This document shows, piece by piece, positions 4,775 to 26,482 of a stretch of DNA of 64,000 bases (position 1 is its first letter; every line of letters begins with the position of its first letter). The stretch is from assembly GCF_000745125.1 (NCBI RefSeq), contig NZ_JQNF01000005.1, positions 620,001 to 684,000 on the forward strand. The letters are read 5' to 3'. A model generated the notes under the pieces. That model had not been told where the DNA came from and made no database searches. It saw only the letters and a list, made by a program, of their open reading frames with translations. The position numbers were made by a program, and so were the translations under genes. This stretch comes from Carnobacterium jeotgali MS3. Its GTDB lineage: Bacteria > Bacillota > Bacilli > Lactobacillales > Carnobacteriaceae.

Positions 4775-6262
4775 ATGTTCGATAAGACAATCGCAAAAGT
4801 AAAGGGGTGGTTAACTAGAATGGGGATTATCAAACAACTAAAGACGATTACGGAACATAAGGATATCAATGTGGATGATAAAGCATATGATCGTATCGCA
4901 AAGAATAAAGCTATCTATAGCGGGTATTTATCGGAGTGGCACGACATCGAATTTAGAACGTCTGCAGGAGAAAAGAAGAAACGCAACATGCTATCAATGG
5001 GAATGGGTAAAAAGGTTGCTGAGGAAATGGCAACGTTGATATTCAACGAGAAAGCAACGATTACAATTGCTAATGAAGCGGCACAGATGTTTGTTGACGA
5101 AACTTTGAGGAAAAATGGATTTCATAAGAACTTTTCACGCTACCTCGAATATGCTTATGCGACTGGTGGCATGGCCGTTAAAGTATTTGCTTATGATGGA
5201 CAAGTCAAACTAGCTTATGCAGTAGCAGATGCTTTTTATCCACTGTCTAGCGATTCAGAGAGCATTGACGAAGCTTTATTCATCAGCGAAGAAACGAAAG
5301 GCGACAAACACTATACATTGCTTGAGTGGAATGAATGGGAAGGTAACCAATATATTGTTACGAATGAATTGTATCAATCAACTGTCAAAGGTGAGTTAGG
5401 TACAAAAGTGGGGTTAGGAGTTCTTTATCCAGACTTACAGGAAAAGACATACATTAACAACTTAAGACGTTCATTGTTCGTGTATTTCAAGCCAAACATT
5501 GCAAACAACAAAGATATGACAAGCCCTTTAGGGATTAGCTTATTCGAGAATTGCTACGATGATTTGTATTTATTGGATTATATGTATGACTTCTTCTTTC
5601 ATGAGTTTAAGTTAGGTAAACGACGTATTGCAGTAGATAGAAGCATGGTCAAACCTTATCCAGATATGAACGGGAATATTGTAAATGTGTTAGATCCAGA
5701 AGAAACGGTATTCGATGCGTTTACTTTACAAGAAGGTAAAGGTGTTACTGATATGTCTGTAGATATCCGCTCAACTGACATTATCAATTCGATTAACTCC
5801 GTCTTAGACGTGTTAAGCATGAAGATAGGATTTAACCCGGGTTCGTTTAGATTCGACGGTACAGGTATTAAAACAGCAACAGAAGTAGTGTCTCAGAACT
5901 CTAAGACGTATCAAACAAAGAACAAGCACGAGGTTTTGATTGAAGAAGGATTGAAAGAATTAATTACGTCCATTATTGACGTAGCAAAACTATATAAATT
6001 ATATGGTGGTCCAAGTGAATTTGAAATCGGCATTGATTTCGATGATTCAATTGCTCAAGACAGACAAGAAAACTTTAATTACTATTCAGCGATGGCGGGT
6101 GCTGGCTTCATTCCTAAATTGATTGCTATTCAAAAAACATCCGACGTTCCAGAAGAGACAGCAAAAAAATGGTTAGACATGATTAAAGAAGAGCAATCCA
6201 GAACGGTTAATGCTGATGTCTCAGATTTATTCGGAGTAGCAGCAACAAACGTTAGGGAGTGA
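4775..6262 (+). CDS. Portal protein
   Basis: The 495-residue protein reads as an SPP1 gp6 / A118-type portal. The N-terminus is helical (KVKGWLTRMGIIKQL), then come an LSEWHDIEFRTSAG region and a central stem-wing domain. The C-terminal region is acidic (GIDFDDSIAQDRQENF), typical of the crown side. Twelve copies would form the ring through which terminase loads DNA and to which the neck attaches. Position between terL and the minor capsid gene fits fully. Confidence 0.9.
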   Translation: MFDKTIAKVKGWLTRMGIIKQLKTITEHKDINVDDKAYDRIAKNKAIYSGYLSEWHDIEFRTSAGEKKKRNMLSMGMGKKVAEEMATLIFNEKATITIANEAAQMFVDETLRKNGFHKNFSRYLEYAYATGGMAVKVFAYDGQVKLAYAVADAFYPLSSDSESIDEALFISEETKGDKHYTLLEWNEWEGNQYIVTNELYQSTVKGELGTKVGLGVLYPDLQEKTYINNLRRSLFVYFKPNIANNKDMTSPLGISLFENCYDDLYLLDYMYDFFFHEFKLGKRRIAVDRSMVKPYPDMNGNIVNVLDPEETVFDAFTLQEGKGVTDMSVDIRSTDIINSINSVLDVLSMKIGFNPGSFRFDGTGIKTATEVVSQNSKTYQTKNKHEVLIEEGLKELITSIIDVAKLYKLYGGPSEFEIGIDFDDSIAQDRQENFNYYSAMAGAGFIPKLIAIQKTSDVPEETAKKWLDMIKEEQSRTVNADVSDLFGVAATNVRE

Positions 6263-20905: not shown

Positions 20906-22176
20906 TGGGTACTGTAACCAGAATTAATCGTGATGATATTATTAATGGTAAAGCAGGTAAGCGTCAAGGAAAACCAAAAGGTGCTGTAATACACAACGAT
21001 TACGGTGCTATGACACCAGAACAATACGTAGATTGGTTAGTTAGAAGAAAAAATGCAGGACAACTAGGATTAGGATTCGCTCAATACTATGTAAATAAAA
21101 CAACCGTATTAAGAGCGGATAATACTGGAAACAAAGCTTGGCACACTGCTAACAACGAAGGAAACGCTTGGTATCTAGGATACGAAGTTGTACAAAGTTA
21201 TTACGGTATTATTTCTGATAAAGAATTTATTAAAAACGAAGACATGACTTTGCGCCAAGTAGCAGAGGATTTTCATTACTACGGATTGAAACCGAATAGA
21301 GACACTATTAAATTACACAAACAATTTTCTTCAACTTCATGCCCGCATCGTTCTTGGGAATTACATGGGAAATCTACTAACGCAGTAAAAGATTATTTTA
21401 TCAATAAAGTAGCTCGCTATATGTCTTTAGGTAAAACTGTTGAAAATATGCTGGCTAAAGAAGGAGTATCTGCCCCCGTCGCAACAGTTCCGAATACGGT
21501 TACACCTCAACCAGACGGTAAGACAGTTAAAGTTGGCAAGCAAGCAACTCACTGGGAAACAGGTAAAGTTATTCCTAAATTTGTAATCGGACAAGTATAT
21601 GATGTATTAGCATCTAAGCCTGTCACAAAATCTAAGTCTAAAAAAGCCTACCTAATTGGTAAAGGAAAAGTTGCTACTGGATGGATATTAGAACAAGATG
21701 TTGACGGATTCAAAACCGCCGGTGGCGGAAACACAAATAAAGCTACTCCTGCAACTAAACCAGTAATTACAGGAACAACAACAGAGACTCAATCAATTGC
21801 TGGGGTTCAAATGTTCTTGAATCGTTGGTTCTACGGTGGTTTAACTGTTGATAATTTAGCTGGTTCTGCAACGTATAAAGCATTGATTAAAGCTTTACAA
21901 ACGGAATTAAACAACCAATTTAACGCTGGACTTGTGGTAGATGGCTACTGGGGAGCTAAAACTAAGGCAGCATGTGTAACGGTTCGTAAAGGAGCCAGTG
22001 GTAACCTTAGTCGTTTAATCCAAGCTGCATTGATTTGCAAAGGTTACAACGTTGGTAAGTTTAACGGAGTATTTTCAGACGATTTATATAATGCAGTGAT
22101 CCGATTCCAGAAAGCAAAAGGGTTATCAGCAGATGGAATTGTTGGTAAGGATACTTTTGAAGCGTTGTTTAAATAG
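20905..22176 (+). CDS. Endolysin, N-acetylmuramoyl-L-alanine amidase with wall-binding repeats
   Basis: The 423-residue enzyme cuts the bond between muramic acid and the stem peptide. Residues 25-175 are an Amidase_2 domain with the zinc-ligand pattern of the first His in AVIHNDYG (H30) and the HKQF and CPHR segments. A middle module (about 205-270) resembles an SH3-type wall binder. The C-terminal 130 residues hold two peptidoglycan-binding-like units (FQKAKGLSADGIVGKDTFEALF). No signal peptide is seen, so export relies on the holin. GTG start. Confidence 0.93.
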   Translation: MGTVTRINRDDIINGKAGKRQGKPKGAVIHNDYGAMTPEQYVDWLVRRKNAGQLGLGFAQYYVNKTTVLRADNTGNKAWHTANNEGNAWYLGYEVVQSYYGIISDKEFIKNEDMTLRQVAEDFHYYGLKPNRDTIKLHKQFSSTSCPHRSWELHGKSTNAVKDYFINKVARYMSLGKTVENMLAKEGVSAPVATVPNTVTPQPDGKTVKVGKQATHWETGKVIPKFVIGQVYDVLASKPVTKSKSKKAYLIGKGKVATGWILEQDVDGFKTAGGGNTNKATPATKPVITGTTTETQSIAGVQMFLNRWFYGGLTVDNLAGSATYKALIKALQTELNNQFNAGLVVDGYWGAKTKAACVTVRKGASGNLSRLIQAALICKGYNVGKFNGVFSDDLYNAVIRFQKAKGLSADGIVGKDTFEALFK

Positions 22177-22186
22177 ACACAACAAA

Positions 22187-22221
22187 ACCCTATCTCTTAA
22201 ATGAGGTAGGGTCGTTTTTTT
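22187..22221. terminator. Bidirectional terminator between endolysin and leftward gene
   Basis: ACCCTATCTC pairs with GAGGTAGGGT (10 bp, one wobble), with seven T on the right and four A on the left side. It ends the late operon and can also end the leftward gene whose stop overlaps its T-run. Confidence 0.88.
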
Positions 22222-22918
22222 ACAGCGTTTCTTCAATAGAATTAATAGTGTCCGAAACTCCTTTATATATTTGTTTAAGAGTCTCAATTACCGGTAGTTT
22301 TAATTCTTCAAAAGAAAGCTTGTTTTTTGCTGTGATATCTTGGTTGATTGAACCTGGAGGGAAGGTGTTTATTAAATCGTAGTCTTGATTACCTATTCTT
22401 ATAGGAACTCCGACATTTGTCATAGTGATGTTTGTAAATTTAGCTCCCCCGAACTCAAGACTTTTGATATTGATACTTTTCTCTGATGTGTTAAAAGTAA
22501 GCTTAGCGTGCTTATTTTCATTAACTAGAAATGTTAATTGACTTAACCATTGTTCGTTGTCTTTAAATGGTTGTGACTTTTCAATTTCTTTAACTATATC
22601 GTGTCTTGTATCGTTCAATCCAATAAAATTTGCGTGTAAATTGTTGTGTAATTTATGTTTTTTATAACTTATTGGATAATTATGTTTTATGTTTTTTAGT
22701 TGTTTAAAAGTGTAGTTTTCTTTACAGTAGGTATCAAATAAATAATTCGAAATATAGTCGAGTGGTGATCGACAGTTTTCTAGGCAATTTTTTATTTTCG
22801 GCTTACAACGTTCCAATAGTTCTATATCATGTATTGAATTCTTTTCTAACTCTTCTATTTGTTGAATAATTTCTTCTGCTTCATTTAAACATAGTAAAGA
22901 ATCTTTATACCAATTCAT
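22220..22918 (-). CDS. HEPN-like protein of unknown function (prophage accessory gene)
   Basis: The 232-residue protein has a helical N-terminal half (LNEAEEIIQQIEELEKN, CRSPLDYISNYLFDTYCK), a middle helix WLSQLTFLVNENKHAKLT and a beta-rich end. The pair RS-LDY and N-NKHAKL recalls a large group of HEPN-like proteins with RSALDH and N-DKHR motifs; I see no RxxxxH RNase motif. It lies after the lysis genes, against the late operon, where lysogenic conversion and defence genes collect. Start ATG follows GGAGGTGATA. Function not known. Confidence 0.6.
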   Translation of the reverse strand: MNWYKDSLLCLNEAEEIIQQIEELEKNSIHDIELLERCKPKIKNCLENCRSPLDYISNYLFDTYCKENYTFKQLKNIKHNYPISYKKHKLHNNLHANFIGLNDTRHDIVKEIEKSQPFKDNEQWLSQLTFLVNENKHAKLTFNTSEKSINIKSLEFGGAKFTNITMTNVGVPIRIGNQDYDLINTFPPGSINQDITAKNKLSFEELKLPVIETLKQIYKGVSDTINSIEETL

Positions 22919-22925
22919 ATTATCA

Positions 22926-22970
22926 CCTCCTTTATGATATAATTATATTAATAATACATCATAAAGGAGG
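22926..22970. promoter_or_regulatory. Divergent promoter region with 13-bp perfect inverted repeat
   Basis: CCTCCTTTATGAT (22926-22938) is repeated inverted as ATCATAAAGGAGG (22958-22970). Each arm contains the ribosome binding site of one of the two divergent genes. The 19-base spacer holds overlapping -10-like TATAAT boxes on both strands (22938-22943 plus, 22942-22947 minus). Shared operator or coupled control is inferred. Confidence 0.6.
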
Positions 22971-22977
22971 CTAATGT

Positions 22978-23151
22978 ATGGCTAAGGAAAATATTTTAGA
23001 AGTAGTCGATGAAATATTACAAAAATACTATTGGTCAGAAATGGCATGTATTAGTGAATTTGCAATAAACAATGATGGAAGTTTAGAAGATGAATTAGAA
23101 GTAGAAGTAAATGAATATAGAAATAAAATAAATATTCTTATAAATAGTTAA
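22978..23151 (+). CDS. Small acidic protein, unknown (prophage accessory gene)
   Basis: The 57-residue protein starts at ATG 22978, eight bases after AAAGGAGG. It is strongly acidic (GSLEDELEVEVNEY) with a helical N-terminus (NILEVVDEILQKYYW). It is divergent from the HEPN-like gene and shares its promoter region. A good terminator follows. An antitoxin or partner role for its neighbour is a possibility, not shown. Confidence 0.6.
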   Translation: MAKENILEVVDEILQKYYWSEMACISEFAINNDGSLEDELEVEVNEYRNKINILINS

Positions 23152-23187
23152 AGCCTCTAACCATAAATAATGGTCAGGGGCTTTTTT
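23152..23187. terminator. Bidirectional terminator
   Basis: AGCCTCTAACCAT pairs with ATGGTCAGGGGCT (one mismatch, one wobble) around AAATA, followed by seven T on the plus strand. It lies between two convergent genes and can serve both. Confidence 0.83.
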
Positions 23188-23191
23188 TGCA

Positions 23192-23503
23192 TTAAAACAT
23201 AGTTTTCTTAAATGGCAGTCTCCTACCTTTATAGTCCCATAATTGACCTAAAAGAGTAGGCTGACTGTCAATTTTGTATTCTTGAATGATCAGTTGTTTA
23301 CGTTCATTAATCGTGCAATCAACTGTTAAACCAGTGCCATTTTCAACCTCGTAAACAAATTTAAAAGCTTTCCGCCCAGCAATCAAACAGTTATGAATTT
23401 GTCCATTAACCTCTAAAGCAATGTAGCAAAATGGGTATCCATGTTTAGTGTTGATCACTTTTACATCCGAAACTACTTTCCCTGTCATCATTGCAGCATT
23501 CAT
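23192..23503 (-). CDS. Small SSB-like OB-fold protein in SOS-controlled operon
   Basis: The 103-residue protein reads as a minimal OB-fold of the SSB type: MNAAMMTGKVVSDVKVIN, then GYPFCYIALEVNGQ, CLIAGRKAFKFVYEV and TVDCTINERKQLIIQEY. It lacks the Gln-rich linker and acidic tip of a full SSB. ATG 23503 is nine bases after GGAGG; an in-frame ATG at 23512 is too close to it. It is the last gene of a leftward operon with a LexA box. Single-strand DNA binding is inferred. Confidence 0.6.
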   Translation of the reverse strand: MNAAMMTGKVVSDVKVINTKHGYPFCYIALEVNGQIHNCLIAGRKAFKFVYEVENGTGLTVDCTINERKQLIIQEYKIDSQPTLLGQLWDYKGRRLPFKKTMF

Positions 23504-23588
23504 GATCCTCATCCTCCTTCAATAGTTCATCTAATTCATCTTCAATAAGTAACAGTGAAGATTCACTCAATCCCCAAATATCATCCAC
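23445..23588 (-). CDS. Short acidic ORF in SOS-controlled operon
   Basis: GTG 23588 follows GGAGGAATG at seven bases and opens 47 codons. The N-terminal part is leucine- and acid-rich (VDDIWGLSESSLLLIEDEL, then ELLKEDEDHE). The end overlaps the SSB-like gene by 59 bases, which weakens the call, although the first 28 codons lie outside the overlap. An ATG at 23594 is also possible. Confidence 0.4.
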   Translation of the reverse strand: MDDIWGLSESSLLLIEDELDELLKEDEDHECCNDDRESSFGCKSDQH

Positions 23589-23590
23589 AA

Positions 23591-23851
23591 TCATTCCTCC
23601 ATTTCGATAGTAATGATAAATGCATTAAATCCAAAAGGAACGCCATCCAATCGATATTTTCCAATTTCGCCCATATAAATCGTCTGTACCATAGCTGAAT
23701 ATTCGATATTGTATTCTTTGACTTCTTGATGAGAAATCTTATCAAGTATGTAATCAGATTGGTCTCTTTCTGGATATTCTTCAAAACTCATTTCTTTTTC
23801 GTTAAACATCATATAATTTTGGTCGAATTCTTGTACTATACATTTCTTCAT
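23591..23851 (-). CDS. First gene of SOS-controlled prophage operon, unknown
   Basis: The 86-residue acidic protein starts at ATG 23851 after GAGGTGATTT. It holds ERDQSDYILDKISHQEV and ends YRLDGVPFGFNAFIITIEMEE, a mixed fold without motif I recognise. In Firmicutes, LexA-box operons on mobile DNA often carry Y-family polymerases and small YolD-like proteins. Here no polymerase is present and the YolD likeness is weak. The stop overlaps the next ORF. Confidence 0.6.
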   Translation of the reverse strand: MKKCIVQEFDQNYMMFNEKEMSFEEYPERDQSDYILDKISHQEVKEYNIEYSAMVQTIYMGEIGKYRLDGVPFGFNAFIITIEMEE

Positions 23852-23870
23852 AATAAATCACCTCGTGTTT

Positions 23871-23899
23871 ATTATACGAACGCACGTTCGTTTTGTAAA
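23871..23899 (-). promoter_or_regulatory. SOS promoter with LexA (DinR) box
   Basis: On the minus strand TTTACA (23899-23894) and TATAAT (23876-23871) are 17 bases apart. The spacer contains CGAACGTGCGTTCG (23877-23890), a perfect match to the Gram-positive LexA box CGAAC-N4-GTTCG. LexA bound here would block RNA polymerase until DNA damage. Confidence 0.88.
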
Positions 23900-24264
23900 G
23901 GGATAAATACCCTCGCTGGATGAGGGAGAGCGAGGGCTGGGTATCTATAATATATGCAAATTGAACTAAATAATTTTATTATGGTATAATTTATTTTAAC
24001 AGAACTCCAAACACCTCTTAACAATGTGTCCCACGTGGAGACGTTATTTATCATCCTACTCGCTAAGGGTTAGAACTTACTAGTTACTATAGTAGGTTCT
24101 GTTCTATTAATAGGGCAGAAAAAGGGCATAATTGTGTTTATTCATGTGTATACATATTTATTTTGGAACTCGCTTTATCAAGCGTATCACTTCTTATTAT
24201 CTCTGGTTTATTCCAGCTCTTATATAAAATTGTATGAGGCACAATTTAGTCAATAAAACAGATG
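23900..24264. other. Intergenic prophage-chromosome junction region
   Basis: No gene with a convincing start is seen. It contains an 8-bp GC-rich hairpin (CCCTCGCT with AGCGAGGG, 23910-23936) with no T-run. Several short frames are open in parallel near 24130-24260 just before the terminator, as if a gene end had been left there. The prophage right attachment site is expected in this interval, but the core cannot be defined without the left junction. Confidence 0.45.
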
Positions 24265-24311
24265 AAAAAAGCCACTAGTAGGATTATTTTCCTTACACTA
24301 GTGGCTTTTTT
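24265..24311. terminator. Bidirectional terminator after metallophosphoesterase gene
   Basis: AAAAAAGCCACTAGT and ACTAGTGGCTTTTTT form a perfect 15-bp stem with a 17-base loop, giving a T-run on either strand. It ends the leftward gene that stops at 24312. Confidence 0.88.
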
Positions 24312-25151
24312 CTAGTTTTTACGTTCAAGAGTGATAATTAATAGATGAGGTTTATTGTTAATCCGAAATGGGAACACGCTGTTCCCGATTCCTCGGCTTA
24401 CCACTAGCTGCTTTGTAGGGTCTTTTTCACTAGTGTAAATACCTGTGGTATATTTAGGGAAAAATCCTTGGCCAGGAGAGTATAAAGGACCGATAAGTGG
24501 CAGTCTTATTTGTCCGCCGTGGGCATGGCCACTAAATGTGATATCCGGCTGGATCATTGGATTAGAAGTGAGATACTGCTCGAAGTATTCCGGGTGATGA
24601 GCGAGCAGCAATAATGGTGTATCGTCGCTTATGGAATCTGATAGAGGCACTTCATTGGGAAAGGATTCATCTCTAACACCCACTAGCGCGAGTTGAGCAT
24701 CATTAACGGTTAAGGTAAGTTGACTATTGTTTAATAGCGTAACGCCACTATGACTTATTTCACTTTCCCATGCGACTAATTGTCCGCTGCTTGTTTCATG
24801 ATTACCGGATACGGCATATGTTGGAGCAATACTCATTAAAGAGCGACCAAATTCTTCAAGAGGTACTTTACTTAAGTCTGCCGTACGATCGATTAAATCA
24901 CCCGTCAAAAGAATAATGTCGGGTTCGGCTTGTTCAATTTCAGAAAGTAACGTGTCAATTGAAATACGATTTCTTTCAAAATGAGTATCCGACAAATGAA
25001 CGATTTTTAAATGGTCTAACTTTGGTGGCAAGTCTTCCAAAGCAATAGTTTGATGATCAATGTCCAATGAACGATTTTCATAGTAGCCATAGAGGCAAAA
25101 GATGATAGTTAAGCTCATGAGTAAAAGAAAAATAAATGCCAATTTTTTCAT
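24312..25151 (-). CDS. Membrane-anchored metallophosphoesterase (YkuE/YaeI-like)
   Basis: The 279-residue protein has one N-terminal membrane helix (AFIFLLLMSLTIIFCLYGYY) and then a calcineurin-like fold outside the cell. All metal-binding motifs are visible: HLSDTHF, LLTGDLIDR, SGNHE, LLAHHPE and FSGHAHGGQ. YkuE-type enzymes act at the cell surface; the true substrate is unknown. It is single, with its own promoter and terminator, divergent from niaR. Confidence 0.88.
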   Translation of the reverse strand: MKKLAFIFLLLMSLTIIFCLYGYYENRSLDIDHQTIALEDLPPKLDHLKIVHLSDTHFERNRISIDTLLSEIEQAEPDIILLTGDLIDRTADLSKVPLEEFGRSLMSIAPTYAVSGNHETSSGQLVAWESEISHSGVTLLNNSQLTLTVNDAQLALVGVRDESFPNEVPLSDSISDDTPLLLLAHHPEYFEQYLTSNPMIQPDITFSGHAHGGQIRLPLIGPLYSPGQGFFPKYTTGIYTSEKDPTKQLVVSRGIGNSVFPFRINNKPHLLIITLERKN

Positions 25152-25179
25152 TTGATCTCCTTGTTAAAACGTTTTTTAT

Positions 25180-25188
25180 AGTATAGCA
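25180..25188 (-). promoter_or_regulatory. Extended -10 promoter of the metallophosphoesterase gene
   Basis: On the minus strand TGCTATACT gives an extended -10 element about 30 bases before the ATG at 25151, with no good -35. The TTGTTAAAACG between has no operator-like symmetry. Confidence 0.5.
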
Positions 25189-25301
25189 CATTTTTGACAA
25201 ATTTTTACGGATGATAAGTTTTATATAAACGCTTTAATTGAAGCAAATTAGGGTATAATTAAGAATAAAAGAGTGCATTAATTGAAAAGGACTGATTTTT
25301 G

Positions 25302-25820
25302 ATGGAAGCAACTAAAAGAAGAGACAGTATTGTTTCGATTTTATCACAGGAGAATAGACCGGTAAGTGCCAGAAAGTTAGCAGAACGGCTAAGTGTGAGT
25401 CGTCAAATTATTGTAGGCGATGTGGCTTTATTAAGAGCGAGTGGTATTGATGTCATAGCTACTCCCAAAGGATATGTATTGGAATCTGCATCAATGACCA
25501 ATAAATTTGTCGGTCAATTAGCCAGTGACCATAGTGCATCCGAAACAAAAGCTGAATTGTATGCAGTAGTGGACAATGGAGGAGAAGTAGTAGATGTTAT
25601 CGTAGAACATCCTATATACGGAGAGTTAAAAGGGCGTTTAACGATTTCTTCGCGTTACGATGCGGATCGCTTTATGGATACGATAGAAAGTAAACAAGCC
25701 AACTTATTGTCAGAATTAACTGATGGCGTTCATTTGCATACTATTGCGTGTGCTGACAAAAAAACGTTTGATCGAATAAAAAAGGTGCTGGATACGCTAG
25801 GTCTGTTGTACAAAAACTAA
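25302..25820 (+). CDS. niaR: Niacin-responsive repressor NiaR (HTH_11 and 3H domain)
   Basis: The 172-residue protein has an N-terminal winged helix (residues 5-60: RRDSIVSILSQ, VSARKLAERLSVSRQIIVGDV) and a C-terminal 3H domain with its conserved histidines in VEHPIYGEL and GVHLHTIA. NiaR (YrxA) represses niacin uptake and NAD synthesis genes when nicotinate is plentiful; the 3H domain binds the ligand with a metal. ATG 25302 is preferred to TTG 25299. The next gene is its expected target niaX, with a candidate operator in between. Confidence 0.9.
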   Translation: MEATKRRDSIVSILSQENRPVSARKLAERLSVSRQIIVGDVALLRASGIDVIATPKGYVLESASMTNKFVGQLASDHSASETKAELYAVVDNGGEVVDVIVEHPIYGELKGRLTISSRYDADRFMDTIESKQANLLSELTDGVHLHTIACADKKTFDRIKKVLDTLGLLYKN

Positions 25821-25827
25821 AGGTGTC

Positions 25828-25855
25828 TTGACAACTTTCGGAAAACAGCTATAAT
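25828..25855 (+). promoter_or_regulatory. Promoter of niaX
   Basis: TTGACA (25828-25833) and TATAAT (25850-25855) are separated by 16 bases, directly after the niaR stop. Near-consensus boxes suggest high activity when not repressed. Confidence 0.8.
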
Positions 25856-25869
25856 TAAATTTGTTAGCA

Positions 25870-25879
25870 TGTCATGACA
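25870..25879. promoter_or_regulatory. Candidate NiaR operator
   Basis: The palindrome TGTCATGACA lies just downstream of the predicted transcription start of niaX, where a bound repressor would block transcription. It has the TGTCA/TGACA symmetry I associate with NiaR sites. Only position and symmetry support it. Confidence 0.5.
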
Positions 25880-25915
25880 CGTGATAATGCACATTTGAGA
25901 GTAGGAGTTGTTGAG

Positions 25916-26482
25916 ATGAAAACGAATAAGATTCATAAATTAACGATTGCAGCACTGTTAGTAGCGATAGGTATTTTAATTCCAATGGTTTCGCCAGTTA
26001 AATTAGTTTTAGAACCAGCATCCTTTACATTAGCGAGTCATGTAGCTATTTTTATTGCGATGTTTATCTCACCGATGATTGCCATAGCAGTGGCATTGGG
26101 AACAGCTGTCGGATTTATGCTGGGAGGTTTTCCAGTCATCATTGCACTAAGAGCCTTAACGCACGTTATTTTTGCAGGAATTGGATCGTATGTGTTGTTT
26201 AAAAAACCAGATATCCTTCAGTCTGCTGTTAAAACACAAATCTTTTCGTTTTTAATCGGTGTGCTACATGCATTTTGTGAAGTAGCCGTTGTATCTGTTT
26301 TTTATTTCGGTGGGGGAATGACAACTGCTTACTATGCGCAAGGTTTCTTACAGTCTGTTTTCTTACTAGTTGGAGCAGGGACAATTATTCATAGCATGAT
26401 TGATTTCATGCTTGCACATGTTGTTTGGAAGACACTAATGAGTCGCAACTCATTTGCTACAACTATGGCAAAAATTAAATAA
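25916..26482 (+). CDS. niaX: Niacin ECF transporter S component NiaX
   Basis: The 188-residue membrane protein has about six hydrophobic helices and the feel of an ECF substrate-binding component (KLTIAALLVAIGILIPMVSP, GGFPVIIALRALTHVIFAG). The match to the predicted niacin S component NiaX of Lactobacillales is by family resemblance and by the niaR context. It would work with the shared EcfA1A2T module coded elsewhere. ATG 25916 follows TAGGAG; an upstream start would overlap the operator. Confidence 0.8.
   Translation: MKTNKIHKLTIAALLVAIGILIPMVSPVKLVLEPASFTLASHVAIFIAMFISPMIAIAVALGTAVGFMLGGFPVIIALRALTHVIFAGIGSYVLFKKPDILQSAVKTQIFSFLIGVLHAFCEVAVVSVFYFGGGMTTAYYAQGFLQSVFLLVGAGTIIHSMIDFMLAHVVWKTLMSRNSFATTMAKIK

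Follow-up and report, generated by a model that had tools for sequence, protein, structure and literature searches.

What does an SOS-type promoter drive at the end of a prophage when no DNA polymerase is encoded behind it? This question is raised by a locus at positions 23192-23899 of the window, the window being the whole 64-kb stretch of DNA analysed here. The preliminary description had claimed three co-oriented small genes at the prophage right end, encoding an 86-residue protein, a short acidic ORF and a mini OB-fold protein, behind a perfect LexA box in the 17-bp spacer of a good promoter, and each of these elements was recovered. ORF A (23591-23851, minus strand; 86 aa, acidic) is preceded by the Shine-Dalgarno sequence GAGGTGA, ORF B (23445-23594, minus) encodes an acidic peptide of 49 aa, and ORF C (23192-23503, minus) encodes a basic single-OB protein of 103 aa with an SSB/PriB-like predicted fold. 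The start of ORF B overlaps the end of ORF A via ATGA, and ORF B also overlaps the start of ORF C. The start codon of ORF C is probably the ATG at 23503 rather than the in-frame ATG at 23512, because it lies nine bases after AAGGAGG and agrees with the close homologues.

The prophage ends at about attR (24221-24259), a 39-bp repeat of attL (C5:608314-608352) with 90% identity between the two copies. attL is located at the 3' end of an ORF recognised by eye as an ABC transporter and is adjoined by a tyrosine integrase ORF; this pair of repeats with its integrase confirmed the right end. The prophage measures about 36 kb and encodes a portal protein at 4775-6262 of the window, and its segment from the lysin gene to attR contains the operon and two other small genes. 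A neighbouring protein of 232 aa (22220-22918, minus) matched PHROG 13652, to which no function is assigned, with an E-value of 1.5e-7. Inside the left end of the prophage, the repressor region (C5:610606-611406, L096) consists of an HTH repressor and an M78/IrrE-like peptidase, and given this region we presume that lysogeny is controlled by a repressor/peptidase pair rather than by a self-cleaving repressor. A stem-loop at 23150-23184 (minus; -19.5 kcal/mol, z -5.2), a possible shared terminator, was found between the converging ORF C and a 57-aa plus-strand ORF. It has a T-run on the plus-strand side only and was not called by the terminator scan, and the Rfam search of window positions 22000-26000 at the gathering threshold gave no match.

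The promoter scan placed the -35 hexamer TTTACA at 23894-23899 and the -10 hexamer TATAAT at 23871-23876, both on the minus strand, and the box search placed the LexA operator CGAACGTGCGTTCG between them at 23877-23890 (minus), where it fills the promoter spacer and is directly abutted by the -10 hexamer. The minus strand thus reads TTTACA-AAA-CGAACGTGCGTTCG-TATAAT, with a spacer of 17 nt, 11 of 12 promoter matches and an operator that is a perfect CGAAC-N4-GTTCG palindrome. The identity of promoter and operator is well supported, and their overlap, a mark of the LexA regulon, was found for the window operon itself; as read from the sequence, this geometry implies plain repression by LexA. Boxes with at most one mismatch are expected 0.83 times per shuffled 64-kb window. 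Taken by itself the box is therefore weak evidence, and this frequency is what speaks for a chance box standing before unrelated or decaying small ORFs. Perfect boxes, in contrast to such chance sites, were found at only two places in the 2.52-Mb genome, both preceding ORF C-family operons. A 29-nt pattern of promoter and operator, TTKACA-N4-GAAC-N4-GTTCGTATAAT, occurred in the genome twice exactly and once with one mismatch, every time before an ORF C-family operon; two further sites appeared at two and three mismatches, neither beside a C gene, and the reversed pattern used as a control had no match.

The genome of the strain encodes LexA, and one-mismatch boxes of the same class precede its lexA, recA, uvrA and recX genes, so that the suggested LexA control held as far as sequence can carry it; the Gram-positive LexA consensus is given as GAAC-N4-GTTC in PMC11442139. 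Four C copies were found in this genome, and all four had a LexA box: the window operon (A-B-C), a UmuC-YolD-C operon at C5:566-568 kb, a W-B-C operon at C5:88 kb and a C-W operon at C10:338 kb, in which W is a second uncharacterised family of about 103-105 aa. The copy at C5:88 kb (L045) was missed by the 29-nt pattern because of one extra base between the box and the -10 hexamer. The UmuC of the genome is a Y-family polymerase with IMS domains, and it shares one LexA-box operon with a YolD-like protein and C. The absence of a polymerase from the window operon, as described before, was therefore real, and a host umuC-yolD-C operon is present elsewhere. Some other boxes of the genome were recorded in passing. 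At G000:C3:83394 (L083:1244-1576) a one-mismatch LexA box precedes about 110 aa of a Y-family polymerase, which looks like the remnant of a decayed copy. Two near-adjacent one-mismatch boxes (G000:C5:403252-403293, L089) lie at the start of an uncharacterised minus-strand ORF of about 127 aa. The host DnaQ-like 3'-5' exonuclease (L093:1149-1682) also has a one-mismatch box, and a similar-looking exonuclease is encoded directly behind ORF C in two relatives (L024, L025).

The ORF C family was followed with a profile of 33 members through 198 Lactobacillales genomes of 54 genera. Matches at E<=0.001 were obtained in 64 genomes and 27 genera, some of the weak ones being other proteins, such as frames of more than 1,100 aa in G078, G097, G175 and G189, while homologues at 31 bits or above were present in 55 genomes of 24 genera. 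The whole-genome loci numbered 87 after removal of redundancy, 72 of them at 31 bits or above and 15 below, which were left out of the family counts. A spread beyond the order was considered and dropped, as the two matches at E<=1e-5 in a 121-genome sample of the class, which included nine or more genomes from the order, were the strain's own genome and one other Lactobacillales genome. Upstream of 44 of the 72 C loci, a LexA box with no more than one mismatch lay within 600 bp (reversed pattern, 0); within up to 2.6 kb the number rose to 54 (reversed pattern, 3). A two-mismatch box within 450 bp was the only one at eight loci, a class that the reversed control also yielded at four of the 72 loci within 600 bp, and ten loci had no box within 450 bp even with two mismatches. 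The 15 weaker relatives, which act as an internal negative set, had no box within 600 bp.

The promoter around the box was kept as well. A TATAAT-like hexamer followed the box directly at 52 of the 54 boxed loci, against 4.7 in shuffled sequence, and just upstream of the box a TTGACA-like hexamer stood at 52 of 54, a count taken without background; at one of the two boxed loci lacking TATAAT (L049) the box taken was a site in a coding region, and loci from near relatives are not independent of each other in these counts. The rarity of the perfect box, the counts of the 29-nt pattern and the conservation in relatives lift the box of the window above chance. With a perfect box that fits the spacer exactly, a promoter retained in the relatives, a family found in 55 of 198 genomes and coding sequences under purifying selection (see below), a box that arose by chance is extremely improbable. 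These loci also bear on whether the operon is specific to phages: its location on a prophage stood, whereas a phage peculiarity did not, since chromosomes throughout the order have C homologues that follow LexA boxes. Small repair accessories under LexA control are a known kind of gene on chromosomes and phages, and no description of the ORF C family, its promoter signature or its operon linkage was found in open-licence PMC text.

Comparison of five copies of each gene (10 pairs each) gave dN/dS values of 0.02-0.07 for ORF C and 0.05-0.22 for ORF A, some of the synonymous distances of ORF A being near saturation. ORFs A and C are thus constrained genes under purifying selection, and ORF A diverges faster than ORF C. 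The model of ORF A, with the predicted order beta-beta-alpha-alpha-beta-beta, reached a pLDDT of 85.8 from seven sequences, which is good for so shallow an alignment. It matched no PDB fold at E<=0.001 (the best, at E 0.07, was not taken as evidence), ORF A had no Pfam match at E<=10, and neither ORF A nor ORF B matched a known family in Pfam, PHROGs or NCBIfam at a usable E-value. The motif DDxWGLxESxLxLIE...LL of ORF B was kept in six aligned copies, two of which follow W as the first gene; a near copy of it was readable between A and C at one further locus (L010), and at another (L009) A runs straight into C and ORF B is absent. A survey of gene order, proposed in the preliminary description, showed that other strains and phages also have A-B-C or A-C. 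Single-protein searches detected no ORF A relative in viral contigs or phage records, the phage records had no DNA match, and of two scans of genome contigs one was without a match and the second gave one locus, in a Carnobacterium MAG. ORFs A and B are exchangeable neighbours of C. The idea that A and W form one family was not supported (hhalign probability 0.4%).

Structural prediction bore out the OB fold of ORF C. The AlphaFold2 model, built on a 33-row alignment, had medium confidence (pLDDT 76.8, pTM 0.59), the last approximately 20 residues not being resolved, and its elements followed the order of an OB fold: strands 3-10, 15-18, 24-32 and 35-42, a helix at 45-52, and strands 58-65 and 71-80. 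Foldseek returned 104 PDB chains at E<=0.001, the best of which were PriB (E 7.6e-5) and SSBs. In the VIA-align comparison, B. subtilis SsbA, another SSB and PriB were tied at Z of about 14 with an rmsd of 1.2-1.5 Å over about 80 residues. Among the 33 members, 26 had a Pfam SSB match at E<=1 (best 2.6e-5) and nine a match to an OB nucleic-acid-binding Pfam family at the same threshold; incidental Pfam rows, DUF7497 once (E 0.0012) and Peptidase_C30 twice (best E 0.12), were not used. Searches of Pfam, PHROGs and NCBIfam with ORF C gave only the sub-threshold SSB match, and a PDB sequence search with its profile gave none. The predicted fold is well supported as a model, now as SSB/PriB-like by structure prediction and fold search, and from fold and charge the binding of ssDNA would be the most likely activity of ORF C.

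The likeness to bacterial SSBs (PF00436; SsbA/SsbB) is confined to the OB domain, which aligns over residues 1-80 in the model. The C members are about 80-106 aa in length, and the two members whose scores were compared fell below the 26-bit Pfam cut-off, with 15.4 bits for the window protein and 23.0 bits for the other. The pI was 8.5-10.1 in all 33 members. Past residue 80 the long members had a net charge of +2 to +5 and the short members one of 0, with no negative value among them, so the acidic C-terminal tip of SSBs is absent from the 33 members by this measure; most of the long members end instead in a related basic tail, with YKGxxxPHKKVxF in the closer ones. By its description in PMC11442139, SSBC of Staphylococcus aureus, a short OB protein whose tail is less acidic, resembles C. 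The same review gives E. coli ssb as LexA-regulated, and for S. aureus it names umuC and yolD among the LexA-regulated genes, whereas the SSB genes, SSBC included, are marked as not identified as such. PriB, too, is a single short OB protein, and since it shares the fold of C, replication restart fits equally well, with C as a damage-induced PriB-like restart factor for host or phage forks. The best Foldseek match, the VIA-align result for PriB (Z 14.2, 1.4 Å, 80 residues) and the basic charge of a single short OB domain are in keeping with such a role, but SSBs scored the same within a Z of 1, and C differs from PriB in its LexA box and in its recurrent linkage, which among the neighbours searched for is to umuC and yolD. 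A restart factor is an unlikely reading of ORF C.

A linkage to lesion-bypass genes was found in the operon partners. UmuC and/or YolD were encoded in the same stretch at 20 of the 72 C loci (UmuC 11, YolD 9), in the orders UmuC-YolD-C, YolD-C, UmuC-C, C-YolD and C-YolD-UmuC. Membership of a umuC and/or yolD operon is thus seen in the C family and not in the window operon. Other boxed operons were of the types C alone among the tested neighbours, A-B-C, A-C, W-B-C and C-W. Altogether 52 of the 72 loci were without UmuC or YolD in the sequence read, which for most loci extended 1.2-1.5 kb downstream and 1.5-2.6 kb upstream, so C may not need them. When the partner labels were placed on a tree of the 72 C sequences, at least 16 changes were counted (minimum 4, shuffled mean 29.3), and W and A loci fell among UmuC loci, on an alignment of 102 columns that left many forks unresolved. 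These changes imply that C stays constant while the polymerase beside it varies.

A YolD-like match was present in 53 of the 55 genomes with C and in 111 of the 143 without C (Fisher p 0.0012, kinship ignored), and it is common anyway, occurring in 164 of the 198 Lactobacillales genomes. The Pfam YolD model PF08863 matched none of nine members of the neighbouring YolD-like proteins of 119-127 aa. In 59 genomes PF08863 gave 14 matches, two of them over the cut-off, and ten were taken as loci; the YolD-like profile hit the same frame at nine of these (E 1.6e-8 to 3e-29) and, at the tenth (L198), a frame next to it. Homology of the 119-127 aa neighbours to YolD is indirectly indicated by these sequence matches. 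A putative Gram-positive mutasome composed of YqjW/UvrX, YolD/YqjX and RecA has been described (PMC6511836, Timinskas and Venclovas 2019; PMC12926913, a 2026 survey), and the C operons resemble it in that a Y-family polymerase and a YolD-like protein are encoded with C in one LexA-box operon. Term searches of the main texts of these two papers found no OB-fold or SSB component.

Because ORF C repeatedly shares operons with UmuC and YolD, and does so in several different gene orders, its most probable setting is lesion bypass at gaps coated by RecA. The preliminary description had suggested that the small proteins may help phage DNA under damage or time induction. LexA bound to the spacer-filling operator would block RNA polymerase, and RecA filaments on damaged ssDNA would trigger the cleavage of LexA, upon which A, B and C would be made from their overlapping frames. 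ORF C, as a miniature SSB/PriB-like OB protein, would bind ssDNA at gaps and serve as an accessory of a Gram-positive Pol V-like lesion bypass by a UmuC-type Y-family polymerase, YolD and RecA. Chromosomal C is encoded in part with umuC and/or yolD; the prophage operon lacks both and may supply C, with A and B, to the host polymerases in trans. A and B would be acidic partners that can be exchanged for others and that perhaps modulate the basic C. The reading to which we lean, with confidence slightly short of even, is that the phage carries, with no polymerase of its own, a LexA-repressed and damage-induced accessory that binds ssDNA and assists the lesion-bypass/RecA machinery of the host. 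A wider proposal is that C is an undescribed ssDNA-binding third subunit of the mutasome in Lactobacillales, which polymerase-less prophage and plasmid operons, with swappable A, B, W or DUF5960-like partners, plug into the lesion bypass of the host and so set mutagenesis or SOS output. This proposal is speculative and on balance doubtful. If true, it would mean that a widespread SOS gene escaped notice because it encodes short products annotated as hypothetical, that Gram-positive error-prone synthesis, for which the set of accessory subunits is still being established, gains an SSB-like component, and that phages contribute accessory parts, not polymerases, to host mutagenesis.

The same fold and control could also serve another end, in which C competes with host SSB and RecA on ssDNA and is used by the phage and other elements to dampen or reshape RecA filaments, so that SOS and lysogeny are tuned by C and C is tuned by A and B. 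An SSB-like fold without the acidic tip would suit a competitor of this kind, and LexA control would give it feedback timing. The HTH and M78/IrrE-like repressor region described above suggests that the phage may sense SOS in some other way, and a phage protein acting on LexA, GIL01 gp7, tunes SOS according to PMC11442139. Homologues of C are, however, also chromosomal and lie inside umuC-yolD operons, which argues for a role in host repair, and we regard the modulation of RecA as rather unlikely, keeping the lesion-bypass accessory as the preferred reading.

Mobile DNA was surveyed with the promoter pattern. The IMG/VR search gave 73 stretches, 59 of them non-redundant, and five of these were left out as having less than 500 bp downstream and no match. 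Among the 54 sites assessed, a C homologue was present within 3 kb at 23; the other 31 had a YolD-like protein without C (2), UmuC-YolD (1) or no tested family (28). The earlier expectation of a Y-family polymerase in most LexA operons of mobile DNA found no support here, with UmuC at one and C at 23 of the 54 sites, counts that cover this promoter type and not all LexA boxes of mobile DNA, as the search pattern was modelled on the promoter of the window. The hdiR-umuC operon of S. uberis and Tn5252 may also be relevant here. The stereotyped 29-nt promoter/operator offers a simple handle for finding more phage SOS genes. A single-protein search of viral contigs found five ORF C loci, and phage records gave five weak ORF C matches in Latilactobacillus phages; in two of these phages, whose virions came from post-induction lysates according to the record, the C homologue lies behind a one-mismatch box. 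Enterococcus plasmids also carry C homologues, with a perfect box in two of three stretches and a two-mismatch box in the third. SaPIbov1 operon I is similar in that its small genes, carried on a mobile element without a polymerase, follow a LexA box (AGAACTTAAGTTCG), but it encodes packaging genes, including a terminase small subunit homologue, and not an OB protein (PMC11442139).

The first genes beside the constant C vary (A, W, a DUF5960-annotated protein and others), and together with the faster divergence of A and the moron-like position between lysin and attR this would suit a damage-triggered phage-host conflict module, toxin-antitoxin-like or for superinfection exclusion, in which A-B-C or W-B-C form the unit and C is accessory. 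A and B, however, match no family of Pfam, PHROGs or NCBIfam at a usable E-value, and the operons with C alone or with C-YolD-UmuC need no such partner, so a conflict module is quite improbable. In an E. gilvus plasmid a DUF5960 protein is the first gene of a LexA-box operon and is followed by a C homologue; ORF A differs from it in lacking any Pfam match.

Several further small genes were seen behind promoters of this kind. A DUF5960-annotated protein follows the same kind of LexA promoter in an Enterococcus plasmid (L079:2254-2508), and proteins of about 96-101 aa that looked DUF5960-like by eye are the first or second genes behind the promoter in phage contigs (L213, L216, L224, L225, L236, L240, L243, L259, L262, L269, L277 and L280). 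Three phage contigs (L063, L064, L065) have the order YolD, a second OB gene, an acidic ORF of about 60 aa and C, so that each operon encodes two OB proteins, and L065, for which upstream sequence was available, has a perfect LexA box. A protein of about 80 aa with a FIIESNRI-like motif was found behind TTGACA-type LexA promoters (L208, L212, L222, L226, L234, L241, L248 and L256), and in the phage contigs L208, L222, L241, L248 and L256 it is followed by a CPCCKNxRLFDA protein of about 60 aa, the pair forming another uncharacterised phage module.
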